10,660 nucleotides of DNA from positions 1 to 10,660 of the forward strand of contig JAKAMA010000049.1 of NCBI GenBank assembly GCA_021813085.1, in the 5' to 3' direction. Source of the DNA: Chloroflexota bacterium. GTDB taxonomy: Bacteria; Chloroflexota; Dehalococcoidia; DSTF01; JACRBR01. The position numbers and the translations under genes were made by a program. The notes beneath the pieces are model-generated. The model did not search any database and had not been told where the DNA came from. It was given only the letters and a program-made list of their open reading frames with translations. Positions 361 to 7,130 of this stretch are shown one piece after another. The first letter of the stretch is position 1, and every line of letters starts with the position of its first letter.

Positions 361-393
361 CCAGACGGCCTCGGACGAGCCGTATGGCCGTCC
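361..393 (-). repeat. 33-base mini-element, copy A (inside the dispersed repeat)
   Basis: The reverse complement of this 33-base block matches 2439-2471 at 30 of 33 positions. The mismatches are position 10 (T here, G there) and positions 29-30 (TC here, AA there). This copy has the better palindrome: a perfect 7-bp stem of GACGGCC (364-370) and GGCCGTC (386-392) around a 15-base loop. It sits precisely between the GGCCCCC and CTCTCCC parts of the dispersed repeat. Removing it restores the order seen in the copy at 7086-7126. This suggests that it inserted into an older repeat. Confidence 0.65.
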
Positions 394-405
394 GGGGGCC
401 GGGGT

Positions 406-417: not shown

Positions 418-2400
418 ATGCGCACCATCAGCGCGGCGCTGCTCGCCGCCCAGCAGTCGGCATCCGCCGAGCCCTACGTGGAGGCGATCGTCGAGAACAA
501 GCAGGCCGGTGTCACCCGGCTCGACTTCGCCATCGCCGACAGCACCGCCAACGCGATCACCTGCCACGGCGCGGCCGTCGCGGGCGACGGCTCGCTGGTC
601 CGCGTGCGCATCGAAGGCGGCGTCGTCAAGCACAGCAGGTCGACGACACCCCAAACGGCGATCAGCGCGGCATGGACGAGCGCGCAGGCTGGCAAGGGCA
701 CGCAGATCGCGGTCTGCGCCACCGGCGCGCGCGTGGCCATCGTCTACACCGACGCTGCCGGCACCGGCGTCAAGGTCATCGAAAGCACAGACAACGGCCA
801 GACGTACGGCGCCGAGGCCGCCGTGGCCACCGCGCCAGCGGCCGTCGTCGGCCTGGCGGCGGCGTACCGGGACGCAGGCGGCGACCTGGCCGTCGCGTGG
901 GTCGAGGCGGCGGCGCTGCGCATCGTCAAGCGCACCGCGGGCATCTGGGGCGCGGTCTCGGCTTCGCCTGCCGCCGTCAGCTCGTACAACGGCATCGGCA
1001 TGGCCTACGTCTTCGACTGGAACATCGGCGTCACCGGCGCCGAGGCGACGACGCTCAGGCCGACGCTCTGGACCACGACCTACGGCGACGGCATCGACGT
1101 CGCCGCCAACACGTGGGGCGCCGCCTACGTGCAGCAGCAGGCCGAAGCCGACGCACAGGTGACGTACCGGGCGCCGTTCCTCGCGTACGTCGGCACGTAC
1201 CGGATGACGTTCGTCGAACAGGACGCCTTCGCCGGCGGCCAGACCCACACCTACAGGACGCACCTGGTCTACCCGCTCGGCTGGACCGCCGGCGCCTACA
1301 CGTGGCGGACGCCCGCGCCCGTGGACTACGCACAGGCGGAGGGCCTCGCGCTCGCCGCCGGCGTCAACTGGGCGTTCGAGAGCGCGCCCGACCGCGTGCA
1401 CCGCGCATCGCGCGCCACGCTCACGCTCGACCTGTCGGCGCGCGTCATCGCCGCCGACGTGCAGGAAAGCACCCTCGATCTCGCCGGCCACATCGACATC
1501 GACAACACGGATGGCGCCTACGCCGGCCCGCCGGCGCCGCTCGCCGTCGGCAACCTCCTCCGCCTCTCGTGGGGGTACCGCACGCCCACGGCCGAAGCGT
1601 CCGCCATGGCCGACCTCGAGATCGCCGGCTTCGAGTACCGGCGCACCGGCGGCGTCTCGACGCTGCGCCTGGCGCTCGCCGGCGGCTGGGCGCAGCTCCG
1701 GCGTGACAGGCAGCGCACCGGCGTCTTCCACGCGGCAGGCTCGGCGAGCTACGGCCAGATCCTCACGCGCATCATGGCGCGCGCCGGCATCAACCTGACG
1801 ACATCGGGCGCGTCCGTGCGGCAGGGCAGCGTCATGCCGGCCTTTCAGATCGCTCCGACGACCGACGCCCACACGGCGGTCCGGGAGGTGCTCGACTTCA
1901 TCGCCGACCGCATCATCATGCGCGCGGGCAACAACGCCGTCCTCATCGAGCCGCTGGCGACAGCCCCGAGTGTCTACACGCTCGGCGGCGCGCCGTCAGG
2001 CCCGTCCGGGCACGCGGTCTACGATGCGCGGATCGCGCTCCTGCCGCCACCGGCGTCCGAAGCGCACGCATTCGGCGCGGGCGTGTTCGGCGAGGCGATC
2101 GATTACGCGGCCGCGGCGGCCTACCTCGGCACGCGGGCGCACCGCCGCGACCTGACGAGCACGACGCCGGCGCAAGCCGCCGCGACGGCGGCGGCGCACC
2201 TGCGGCAACTCGCGCTCGACCAGCCAGGCGGCACGCTCACCGTGCCGCCGGTGTGCGGGCTGGAAGTGCTGGACGTGGTCGACATCACCGACCCGCTGAT
2301 CGGCGCGTCGGCGGTGAAGCGCAGGGTGCAGGAGATCCGCTGGCGCTACGACGCGCGCGGTGGCACGTACGAGCAGCAGATCAGCCTGGGGGCAGTATGA
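418..2400 (+). CDS. Phage tail/baseplate-like protein with sialidase-type Asp-box
   Basis: This is a 660-residue soluble protein with no signal peptide or membrane segment. The N-terminus (MRTISAALLAAQQSASAEPY) has the short helical lead typical of some phage tail proteins. Residues about 40-260 are beta-rich and contain one Asp-box, S123-T-D125-N-G127-Q-T129-Y, the S-x-D-x-G-x-T-aromatic turn of BNR/sialidase propellers, followed by repeated strand-like segments. From about 335 (ADVQESTLDL, HIDIDNTDGAY) to the end, the alternating strands, the GYGQIL-like SYGQILTRIMARAGI segment and the C-terminal VLDVVDITDPLIG...RRVQEIRW pattern resemble tail or baseplate hub proteins. ATG 418 is chosen because GAGGGAG lies five bases upstream. 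The stop overlaps the next ATG (ATGA), which implies translational coupling. Phage origin is an inference from composition and neighbours. A carbohydrate-binding or receptor-facing role for the Asp-box part is possible but unproven. Confidence 0.65.
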   Translation: MRTISAALLAAQQSASAEPYVEAIVENKQAGVTRLDFAIADSTANAITCHGAAVAGDGSLVRVRIEGGVVKHSRSTTPQTAISAAWTSAQAGKGTQIAVCATGARVAIVYTDAAGTGVKVIESTDNGQTYGAEAAVATAPAAVVGLAAAYRDAGGDLAVAWVEAAALRIVKRTAGIWGAVSASPAAVSSYNGIGMAYVFDWNIGVTGAEATTLRPTLWTTTYGDGIDVAANTWGAAYVQQQAEADAQVTYRAPFLAYVGTYRMTFVEQDAFAGGQTHTYRTHLVYPLGWTAGAYTWRTPAPVDYAQAEGLALAAGVNWAFESAPDRVHRASRATLTLDLSARVIAADVQESTLDLAGHIDIDNTDGAYAGPPAPLAVGNLLRLSWGYRTPTAEASAMADLEIAGFEYRRTGGVSTLRLALAGGWAQLRRDRQRTGVFHAAGSASYGQILTRIMARAGINLTTSGASVRQGSVMPAFQIAPTTDAHTAVREVLDFIADRIIMRAGNNAVLIEPLATAPSVYTLGGAPSGPSGHAVYDARIALLPPPASEAHAFGAGVFGEAIDYAAAAAYLGTRAHRRDLTSTTPAQAAATAAAHLRQLALDQPGGTLTVPPVCGLEVLDVVDITDPLIGASAVKRRVQEIRWRYDARGGTYEQQISLGAV

Positions 2401-2675
2401 CGACAGCAATTCCCGCCCAGACGGGCGCCGGTCTCGGCGGACGGCCAGACGGCTCGTCCGAGGCCGAATGGCACGGCGGCATCCTCAAGGCGTGGAACGC
2501 CGGCGCCTACCTCGCCGACGTGCAGCTCACCGGCAGCCTCACACTCTGGCTCAAGAGCGTCCCGACCTCGCGCGGCATCCCGTCCGGCGAGATGATCGTC
2601 GGCCGCAAGGTCGCCGTGCTACTGTTCGACCCCAGCAACCCGGCCGACGCCGTGCTCGTCGCCGTGTACACGTAA
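2397..2675 (+). CDS. Small phage-module protein carrying an in-frame 33-base element
   Basis: This gene encodes 92 residues. The ATG at 2397 overlaps the TGA of the tail-like gene (ATGA), which fixes the start; longer in-frame readings would run back through the other gene. The protein is beta-rich. Residues 49-92 alternate hydrophobic strands (LTLWLKSV, RKVAVLLFD) and end with DAVLVAVYT, a layout like small OB-fold spike or baseplate proteins, where a V-x-V-L-x-F-D strand is followed by a Pro/Asn/Asp turn. That likeness is by eye only. Residues 15-25 (GRPDGSSEAEW) are encoded exactly by the 33-base element that also occurs at 361-393. This hydrophilic segment is probably an insertion in an otherwise compact protein. 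It is the last phage-like gene before the folate cluster. Confidence 0.6.
   Translation: MTTAIPAQTGAGLGGRPDGSSEAEWHGGILKAWNAGAYLADVQLTGSLTLWLKSVPTSRGIPSGEMIVGRKVAVLLFDPSNPADAVLVAVYT
2439..2471 (+). repeat. 33-base mini-element, copy B (in frame inside a coding region)
   Basis: This block matches the reverse complement of 361-393 at 30 of 33 bases. It is exactly 11 codons (GRPDGSSEAEW) in the frame of the gene starting at 2397, so it neither shifts nor stops the reading frame. Short internal arms remain (CGGCC 2442-2446 with GGCCG 2462-2466), but the outer stem seen in copy A is weakened by the GAA at 2466-2468. Confidence 0.65.
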
Positions 2676-2710: not shown

Positions 2711-3745
2711 GTGGCGGAGACGCAGACGATCGAGCTAGAGCCGGTCGACGCGGTCGAGATCACGACGCTCGTCGATAACACGGTCGACCACTTGCTCCCG
2801 GACAGCGGGCGGGCGCGGCGTGCCTCGCTGGGCGGCGTGCCGGGCGGGCCGCGCGTCGAGACGCCGCTGCTCGCCGAGCCGCGCATCGCCGACGCGCTGG
2901 TCGCCGAGCACGGGTTCTCGGCGCTCGTGCAGGTGTCGCGCGGCGGCCGCACGCACCGCCTGCTGTTCGACGCGGGCCTGAGCACGGGCGGCGTCGCGCA
3001 CAACATGGATGTGCTCGGTGCGCGCGTCGCGGATATCGAAGCCATCGTGATGAGCCACGGGCACATCGACCACACGGGCGGGCTGCACGGCCTCGTCGCG
3101 CGCAACGGCCGGCGGCGGCTACCGATGCTGCTCCACCCGGACTTCTGGCTCGAGCGCCGCATCGCACCGCCGGAAAGGGAGCCGCTGGAGCTGCCGACGG
3201 TCAGCCGCGGCGCGCTCGAGGGCGCGGGGTTCGAGGTCATCGAAGGCGCACGGCCATCGTTGCTGCTCGACGGCTCGGTGCTGATCACGGGCGAAGTCGC
3301 GCGGAGCACGGAGTTCGAGCGCGGCTTCCCGGTGCACCAGGCGAAGCGCGGCGGGGCGTGGACGCCCGACCCGCTGATCCTCGACGACCAGGCGCTGGTG
3401 GTGAGCGTGCGCGGGCGGGGGCTCGTCGTGCTCACGGGCTGCGGGCACGCCGGCATCGTCAACATCGTGCGGCACGCGCGGGCGCTGACGGGCGAGCCAC
3501 GCGTCGCGGCTATCGTCGGCGGCCTCCACCTGAGCGGGCCGCTCTTCGACCCGATCATCCCGGCGACGGTCGAAGCGCTGGCAGGCTTCGCGCCGGGAAT
3601 GATCGTGCCCGCGCATTGCAGCGGCTTCGCCGCGACGCGCGCGATTTCGCTGGCGCTGCCGGACGCCTTTGTGCAGAGCAGCGCGGGCACACGCTACATC
3701 ATCGACGCCCAGACAGGCGCCCGTCCGGGCGCCGGGGGAGCGTGA
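2711..3745 (+). CDS. MBL-fold metallohydrolase, COG1237 type, beside folate genes
   Basis: The product is a 344-residue metallo-beta-lactamase-fold hydrolase. The metal-binding motif S-H116-G-H118-I-D120-H121-T-G-G is complete. Further candidate ligands follow in GCGHAG (H246), GGLHL (H273) and PAHCSG (H302). The early VDNTVDHLLP, the LLFDAGLSTGGVAHNMDVLG block and the LTGCGHAGIVNIV segment are typical of COG1237. Members of that group are often labelled 7,8-dihydropterin-6-methyl-4-aminobenzene-phosphate synthase, a name that is probably over-transferred. Start GTG 2711 is chosen because a -10-like TAGCAT stands six bases upstream and the previous gene ends at 2675. The stop overlaps the folP GTG (GTGA), so it is likely co-translated with folP and folK. 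A phosphatase or hydrolase step on a pterin is an inference from this context only. No signal peptide is seen, so it is likely cytoplasmic. Confidence 0.85.
   Translation: MAETQTIELEPVDAVEITTLVDNTVDHLLPDSGRARRASLGGVPGGPRVETPLLAEPRIADALVAEHGFSALVQVSRGGRTHRLLFDAGLSTGGVAHNMDVLGARVADIEAIVMSHGHIDHTGGLHGLVARNGRRRLPMLLHPDFWLERRIAPPEREPLELPTVSRGALEGAGFEVIEGARPSLLLDGSVLITGEVARSTEFERGFPVHQAKRGGAWTPDPLILDDQALVVSVRGRGLVVLTGCGHAGIVNIVRHARALTGEPRVAAIVGGLHLSGPLFDPIIPATVEALAGFAPGMIVPAHCSGFAATRAISLALPDAFVQSSAGTRYIIDAQTGARPGAGGA
3716..3733 (+). repeat. Short GC-rich inverted repeat near the end of the MBL gene
   Basis: GGCGCCCG (3716-3723) and CGGGCGCC (3726-3733) form a perfect inverted repeat with a two-base centre, in practice a 7-bp stem with a four-base loop. 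It lies just before the folP start and has no T-tract, so it is not a standard intrinsic terminator. It could hide or attenuate the folP ribosome binding site at 3733-3739. That effect is a guess. Confidence 0.35.
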
Positions 3746-4629
3746 CGGCGATGGCGCGACAGCTCCCGGCCGGCGAGACGCGCGTCGGCCCGCGCGTGTT
3801 CGCGTGGGGGACGCGCACGTACGTGATGGGCGTGATCAACGTCTCGCCGGACTCGTTTTCGGGCGACGGGCTCTCCGACGCCGGCGCCGCGGTCGAGCAG
3901 GCGCGCCGCTTCATGGCGGAGGGCGCGGACATCCTCGATGTCGGCGGGCAGTCGACGCGCCCGGGCCCGGTGAAGACCGACGACGGATTCGAGGAGATCG
4001 CGCCGGACGAGGAGGTCCGGCGCGTGCTGCCGGTGATCGAAGGCATCCGCCGCGCGCTTGCGGACGCGCCGATCAGCGTCGACACGTACAAGCCGGCCGT
4101 GGCGCGCGCGGCGCTCGACGCGGGGGCCCACATGCTGAACGACGTGATGGGCCTGCGCCGTGACCCGGAGCTGGCGCGCATCGCCGCGCGGGCGCGCGTG
4201 CCCGTCGTCGTCATGCACAACCAGCGCGGCCGGCACGCGGACGACGTGATGGGCGCGATCCTCGAAGGGCTGCGCGCGTCGCTGCTGATCGCCGGGGAGG
4301 CCGGGATCGCGCGCGGCGACGTGATCGTCGACCCGGGGTTCGGGTTCGGCTGGACGCCAGAGCAGAACATCGAGATCCTGCGCCGGCTGCGCGAGCTGGA
4401 GGCGCTCCAGGCGCCGGTGCTCATCGGCACGTCGCGCAAGTCGACGGTCGGCATCGCGCTCGGCGGCGCGCCGGTGCACGAGCGCGTCTTCGGCACGGCG
4501 GCGACGGTCGCGCTGGCGATCGCGCATGGCGCGGACATCGTGCGCGTGCACGACGTCGCGGAGATGGTGCAGGTGGCGCGCGTGTCCGACGCCATCGTCC
4601 GGGGCCGCATGCCGGGAGAGGGCCCGTGA
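3742..4629 (+). CDS. folP: Dihydropteroate synthase
   Basis: The enzyme joins 6-hydroxymethyl-7,8-dihydropterin diphosphate to p-aminobenzoate to make 7,8-dihydropteroate, and it is the sulfonamide target. The product has 295 residues, a usual length. Visible motifs are V28-MGVINVSPDSFSGDG (pterin and Mg site), DVGGQSTRPG at 66-75 (p-aminobenzoate loop; most homologues have E where Q70 is), ISVDTYKP at 111-118, LNDVMG at 132-137, IVDPGFGFG at 195-203, GTSRKS at 229-234 and RVHDV at 268-272. The TIM-barrel set is complete. GTG 3742 overlaps the upstream TGA, the same way folK overlaps this gene. ATG 3751 is a possible alternative start. GGGGGAG at 3733-3739 is the only Shine-Dalgarno-like run, close to the GTG. 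folP, folK and the MBL gene appear to form one operon. Confidence 0.95.
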   Translation: MTAMARQLPAGETRVGPRVFAWGTRTYVMGVINVSPDSFSGDGLSDAGAAVEQARRFMAEGADILDVGGQSTRPGPVKTDDGFEEIAPDEEVRRVLPVIEGIRRALADAPISVDTYKPAVARAALDAGAHMLNDVMGLRRDPELARIAARARVPVVVMHNQRGRHADDVMGAILEGLRASLLIAGEAGIARGDVIVDPGFGFGWTPEQNIEILRRLRELEALQAPVLIGTSRKSTVGIALGGAPVHERVFGTAATVALAIAHGADIVRVHDVAEMVQVARVSDAIVRGRMPGEGP

Positions 4630-7085: not shown

Positions 7086-7130
7086 CCTCACCCCCCGGCC
7101 CCCTCTCCGTTGCGATGGAGAGGGGGAGAC
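7086..7130 (+). repeat. Dispersed intergenic repeat, copy 2 (uninterrupted hairpin)
   Basis: CCTCACCCCCCGGCCCCC (7086-7103) is followed by a perfect 10-bp stem, CCCCCTCTCC (7099-7108) with GGAGAGGGGG (7117-7126), around an eight-base loop. The motif equals the minus-strand copy at 336-412, with six Cs in place of four and no 33-base insert. A run of GGGGGG at 7144-7149 could pair with CCCCCC at 7091-7096. It begins seven bases after the scpA stop. A role in ending or stabilising the scpA transcript is possible, but there is no T-tract. Confidence 0.7.

Follow-up and report, generated by a model that had tools for sequence, protein, structure and literature searches.

The window, a 10,660-nt stretch that forms contig C15 of its draft genome (G000), carries two distant blocks that are near reverse complements of each other, one inside a gene and the other in a gap, which raises the question of whether they are copies of a small mobile element and, if so, what its unit is. 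Relatives are referred to below as G001 to G007, of which G001 (REEB247) and the more distant G002 are congeners. The inverted match proposed originally between 361-393 and 2439-2471 is real: the pair 360-394 and 2438-2472 (35 nt, 91%) was listed first among the inverted pairs of the window, where a simple estimate from base composition predicts about 2e-6 pairs of this kind. Its size had to be revised, as the boundaries that fit the family described below enclose 36 nt and not 33 bases, at 361-396 on the reverse strand and 2436-2471 on the forward strand. The block in the gene was correctly placed in frame, but it spans 12 codons (GGRPDGSSEAEW, residues 14-25), one more than the 11 first counted. 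The features are:

2397..2675, forward strand: host gene of a 92-aa protein of unknown family; its start overlaps the end of a 660-aa gene, and orthologues occur in G001 and G002.
2412..2471, forward strand: 60-nt segment present here and not in the G001 orthologue (pairwise alignment).
2436..2471, forward strand: 36-nt composite element in the 92-aa gene; three mismatches to C144:3530-3565, absent from the G001 orthologue (L199).
2436..2444, continued at 2463-2471, forward strand: outer 18-mer, split by the inner one (decomposition of the 36-mer).
2445..2462, forward strand: inner 18-mer CCAGACGGCTCGTCCGAG, fitting CCRKACGGCYCGTCYGRG; core pattern without mismatch at 2443-2463.
361..396, reverse strand: 36-nt composite element within a dispersed intergenic repeat, upstream of the 660-aa gene; two mismatches to the 36-mer at C144:3530-3565.
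370..387, reverse strand: inner 18-mer CCATACGGCTCGTCCGAG; core pattern without mismatch at 369-389.
7086..7126, reverse strand: uninterrupted copy of the intergenic repeat broken by the 361 element (sequence match).

The block at 361 does interrupt a repeat, as the original prediction held: excising 361-396 joins GAGAGG to GGCCGGGGTGAG, which is near the GAGAGGGGGCCGGGGGGTGAG of the 7086-7126 copy and differs from it only in the lengths of G runs. The composite sits 3' of GG, after GAGAGG. Insertion at this site is deduced from the restored repeat because the G001 sequence between the two genes is dissimilar there. Clean boundaries had been claimed for both contexts, but the gene copy does not have them: residues 15-25 are missing from the G001 orthologue as part of a 60-nt difference (2412-2471), whose 3' part is the 36-nt block and whose first 24 nt the 18-mer family does not account for. 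The N-terminus reads MTTEIHGAILKAW in G001 and MTTAIPAQTGAGLGGRPDGSSEAEWHGGILKAW here, 60 nt longer with 36 of them composite, and is different again in the G002 orthologue. As the window copy thus occupies a variable N-terminus and is part of a larger difference, other genes supply the best evidence for insertion. In this copy the outer unit has diverged (start GGC for CCC, and GAATGG for GTATGG), and the predicted single-strand folds of the window copies are weak (z -1.3 and -2.9).

Another inverted pair in the window (2414-2439 and 3706-3731, 26 nt, 88% complementary) overlaps the unexplained 24 nt with its first arm. The 92-aa protein had no match in Pfam and PHROG searches, nor had any of the three consecutive ORFs of positions 1-2675 (the end of one, 660 aa and 92 aa), which, by reading alone, look like a phage-tail-type operon.

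An 18-nt unit and its family

The 36-mer resolves into two 18-mers, CCCGGACGGGCCGTATGG on the outside (reverse complement CCATACGGCCCGTCCGGG) and CCAGACGGCTCGTCCGAG within it, and since both fit CCRKACGGCYCGTCYGRG, the block is one element inside another. The earlier idea of a single 33-base mobile element was therefore kept in its mobility and rejected in its size, the unit being 18 nt. Matches to the composite with 0-3 mismatches were found at five sites, two of them in the window, and show that 18-mers nest; tandem and inverted pairs of 18-mers were also seen (C378, C81). Further full-length copies in the same genome lie at C144:3532-3566 and 3765-3799, with partial copies elsewhere.

The unit is an imperfect palindrome with the ends CCRK and YGRG and an internal CGTC. 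Across 99 copies the pattern was conserved from the second to the twentieth base and variable to either side, even though outer G's were part of the search; this conservation count is partly imposed by the search pattern. The pair formed by positions 11 and 18 is C-G in 89 of the 99 copies and T-A in eight, which may represent one or two events because the T-A copies are mostly of the composite kind. No stop occurs in any of the six frames of 96 copies, and in the other three a TGA arises from T at the second Y together with A at the last R. Because 18 is divisible by three and the common forms are stop-free in six frames, an insertion into a gene lengthens the protein by six residues without shifting the frame.

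The family was counted with the core pattern GGCCRKACGGCYCGTCYGRGG. Allowing at most three mismatches, 150 sites were found in the own genome (draft of 2.52 Mb, 399 contigs, 77% complete), compared to nine for a reversed-pattern control; with at most two mismatches there were 108 sites, none for the reversed control there, and 37 in G001. Such numbers leave no room for the possibility, raised with the original prediction, that these two copies are the only ones. At the same threshold of two mismatches, G002 (98% complete) had no site, the five other members of the taxonomic family had at most one each, and the remaining 52 genomes of the 60 searched had 0 to 3 each (reversed control 0 to 2 per genome), which shows that the family is restricted to part of one Chloroflexota genus. 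When 84,980 species genomes, in which the own or very near records are possibly absent, were scanned for exact matches, 41 stretches were returned, 10 of them in REEB247 and one or two in every other genome with a hit. An exact search of viral contigs gave no match, and we rejected phage-borne spread on this ground.

An 18-mer was also seen at a similar junction of a CCCTCACCCC...TCTCCC-type intergenic repeat at C25:404, C25:597, C46:3981, C162:3112, C114:3186 and C122:2077. Because a like junction recurs in several copies, the 18-mer seems by now to be part of this composite repeat.

Insertions since the split from a congener

The sample was built from 100 listed places minus C331:2297 and C340:13313, with further sites added only where the stretches contained them, and held 114 copies with at most three mismatches in the sequence stretches examined. 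A G001 counterpart was available for 53 of these: 29 were exact 18-nt insertions, six lay at exact 36-nt gaps, 11 were shared and seven were other (60 nt for the window gene, 26, 15, 9, 12+6, and two messy), counts that are no random sample because the gene copies were chosen for their place inside the protein (30 in the orthologue search; 28 of the 68 were submitted). C378:8863 on the forward strand and C81:7129 on the reverse strand were left out of these counts, because each is the opposite strand or the partner of a copy already counted; a single 36-nt gap covers both C378:8845 and C378:8863. The exact gaps (35 of the 53 copies) comprise 25 copies in predicted genes and four intergenic ones at 18 nt, and four and two, respectively, at 36 nt. 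Compared to G002, 27 records gave 11 exact 18-nt, two exact 36-nt and 14 other differences. Among five of G001's own gene copies that were tested, C131:18330 was a six-residue insertion compared to G002, G003 and G006, C146:7562 was common to G000 and lacking in the same three genomes, and three were ambiguous. At the level of sequence comparison, these gaps show that 18-mers were inserted since the split from the congener.

Eleven intergenic copies could be compared with G001, giving four exact 18-nt gaps (one of them, C89:2998, with poor near flanks of 11/20), two exact 36-nt gaps, two shared copies, two messy cases and one difference of 26. Because these gaps have the same lengths and are free of frame selection, the unit size is 18 and does not originate from selection on the reading frame.

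Of the 99 copies, 68 lie wholly within predicted genes and 31 are intergenic, so the family occupies genes as well as gaps. The gene copies fall in all six frames (17, 11 and 7 on the same strand; 6, 13 and 14 on the opposite strand). Their share is lower than the 82% of examined bases that our own small gene model calls coding in the stretches around copies (p ~6e-4), as would be expected if insertions in genes were mildly selected against. The absence of in-frame stops in called genes is no evidence because the model forbids such stops, although one call (C60:434) does contain an internal stop.

At the protein level, clean six-residue gaps were seen in the orthologues of many genes. In glycerol kinase the six residues are missing from all six relatives, G001-G006, and solved glycerol kinases (1bo5, 3ezw) and seryl-tRNA synthetases (2dq3, 6x94) show a gap of six at the 18-mer residues. 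MoeA was not clean, with a longer gap in solved relatives and a 15-nt difference from G001.

Clean insertions absent from orthologues and many copies in genes and gaps support the view of the original prediction that this is a small mobile element tolerated in proteins, and the comparison with relatives likewise supports its likeness in behaviour, with unrelated sequence, to Rickettsia palindromic elements. We consider it very probable that the repeat is a non-autonomous and very small mobile DNA element with a unit of 18 nt, which appears to have multiplied recently in one Chloroflexota genus, in genes and gaps and also beside and inside itself.

Target dinucleotide and possible routes of movement

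Empty sites in G001 show a target preference for GG. Good flanks were available for 26 of the 29 events, and their junction dinucleotide was GG in 21 cases, AG in three, TG in one and AA in one, against a background in which about 9% of dinucleotides are GG (binomial p for 21/26 ~5e-18). Six events did not have GG (five of the 26 and one with weaker flanks). An AG site became AG...GG at C176:89 and C81:7078 and GG...GG at C81:3177 and C68:5105, the AA site at C23:1596 became AG...GG, and the TG site at C109:2825 became GG...GG. A 2-nt target-site duplication would give XY...XY, which was seen in none of these six informative junctions and is therefore disfavoured, though the cases are few. The simplest reading is that the 18-mer starts with CC, ends with GG and is placed 3' of a dinucleotide that is mostly GG.

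Placement 3' of a fixed dinucleotide is the logic of IS200/IS605 elements. By analogy, the 18-mer could move in single-stranded form, as a hairpin on which a trans-acting enzyme of the HUH/Y1 type (IS200/IS605 or RAYT) works. This enzyme would cut behind GG both in the target and at the 3' end of the element itself, so that insertion would proceed without target-site duplication. We offer this mechanism tentatively, as one that falls somewhat short of an even chance. We have a modest preference for the view that the single 18-nt hairpin is itself the unit of transposition, in which case it would be the smallest mobile DNA described and would settle in genes nearly as freely as in gaps.

A related and rather doubtful explanation treats the 18-mer as a REP-type repeat that is mobilised by the only RAYT (Y1_Tnp) enzyme in each carrier, whose gene adjoins trpB. 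A PF01797 profile search of G000-G003, G005 and G006, with the own genome 77% complete and G004 and G007 outside the survey, found one Y1_Tnp gene in G000 (C114), one in G001 (C128) and two in G006, and none in G002, G003 and G005. The gene is thus present in both carriers and absent from G002, which has no 18-mer copies, and a palindromic unit that adjoins a short fixed dinucleotide without duplication is also what this explanation would predict. However, G006 has two such genes and no 18-mer copies, and the 18-mer ends without a GTAG or CGTC tag. The RAYT-type reading frame (L241, G000:C114, 1273-2019; L240, G001:C128), which in both carriers looks to lie between trpF and trpB as neighbours identified by reading, holds not the 18-mer but a 22-bp palindrome, GGACAGGTCTTCAGACCTGTCC, on both sides of its conserved core (three copies in G000, two in G001). 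This palindrome is present in G000, G001, G004, G005 and G007 but was not found in G002, G003 and G006; because its distribution within the genus is the same, the correlation of Y1_Tnp with the 18-mer is confounded. In G000 the 18-mer nearest to the gene, C114:3186, lies some 0.7 kb ahead of the reading frame, and none occurs in the 2.1 kb around the G001 gene. A cognate RAYT would be accompanied by the same repeat, and each tnpAREP is tied to its own REP family according to one report (PMC6006769), so the RAYT, whose gene carries a different palindrome, is a candidate mobiliser and was rejected as a proven one. At G001:C42:11843-12229, four copies of GGACAGGTCTTCAGACCTGTCC are spaced by 120-123 bases, as if in a tandem array.

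It is unlikely that the 18-mers are scars, not mobile themselves, from the excision of a larger element or from a site-specific recombinase. Fixed length and sequence and a palindromic shape are expected of a recombination site, and no enzyme is tied to the 18-nt unit; however, reading of 89 stretches (~259 kb) revealed no larger elements bounded by 18-mers, and nested and tandem pairs are easier to explain by insertion at a GG inside the element. Far less probable is a selected protein-binding motif (a DNA uptake, replication or nucleoid signal) arising in place by mutation, for which about a hundred dispersed copies in both orientations in part of one genus would speak. This reading is largely refuted by the exact gaps, since what separates 35 of 53 copies from G001 is a complete insertion of 18 or 36 nt rather than substitutions, and G002 has no copies, although a function may have been gained after insertion. 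Chance similarity in a G+C-rich genome and assembly or binning artefacts, which a fragmented draft (399 contigs, 77% complete) might invite, have a negligible probability and were ruled out by the reversed-pattern controls (0-9 versus 108-150) and by the separately assembled G001, which has the family and shares 11 copies.

Relation to other small repeats

The mobile 18-mer can be compared with SDRs of Nostoc and relatives, which also have a unit of about 20 nt, mobility and a short fixed target, and which Elhai and colleagues reportedly described in 2008 as 21-27 nt long. SDRs nest in themselves. Both the fixed short target (GG at 21 of 26 empty sites) and self-nesting (the 36-mer) recur here, and recent mobility is seen for the 18-mer too, but 18 nt lies below the 21-27 nt range of SDRs, phylum and target are other ones, and the 18-mer is mostly found inside predicted protein genes. 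SDR5 inserts inside HIP1 (PMC4390886), and the size of SDRs is given as "some 20 bp" (PMC2884548).

Insertion in frame into unrelated genes and into gaps is shared with RPEs, of which RPE-1 measures 100-150 nt and encodes 30-50 residues. The 18-mer has no sequence relation to them, differs in length class and host (a Chloroflexota genus, not Rickettsiales), and adds six residues per copy in all six frames. RPEs have been described as palindromic repeats that occupy intergenic gaps and also, in frame, protein genes of unrelated kinds, some of them conserved (PMC2229807). REPs (GTAG/CGTC) are short palindromes of 20-40 bp, single or paired, with a terminal unpaired tag and mostly intergenic, some being intragenic in O. 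terrae and R. conorii (PMC3733652). In contrast, the 18-mer has CGTC internally and only 31 of 99 copies are intergenic. In the REPIN model, the doublet moves and singlets are defunct remnants (PMC3116915). The 36-nt composite resembles a REPIN in being a pair of units in a genome with a RAYT-type gene; however, single 18-nt insertions outnumber copies at 36-nt gaps by 29 to 6. The target-site duplication of MITEs was seen in none of the six informative junctions, few as these are.

Our literature search, with the original SDR paper outside it, found no report of this family or of any 18-nt mobile element. The repeat works like RPEs and SDRs, with membership shown for neither, and is kin to very small mobile repeats, among which it would rank with the smallest mobile DNA elements known. 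It bears on the lower size limit of mobile DNA and on the origin of REP-like repeats, and the 29 exact insertions with empty sister-species sites permit direct tests of enzyme and target and of whether single units, defunct in the REPIN model, can move. If the single hairpin is indeed the moving unit, a living bacterium scatters six-residue inserts through its proteome, including seryl-tRNA synthetase. The set of 29 insertions also amounts to a natural experiment in protein tolerance, with enzymes carrying a defined six-residue insert next to sister enzymes without it.

One gene, G000:C109:2417-3271, which appears biotin-ligase-like from reading alone, holds three 18-mers, of which two are absent from G001 and one is shared.
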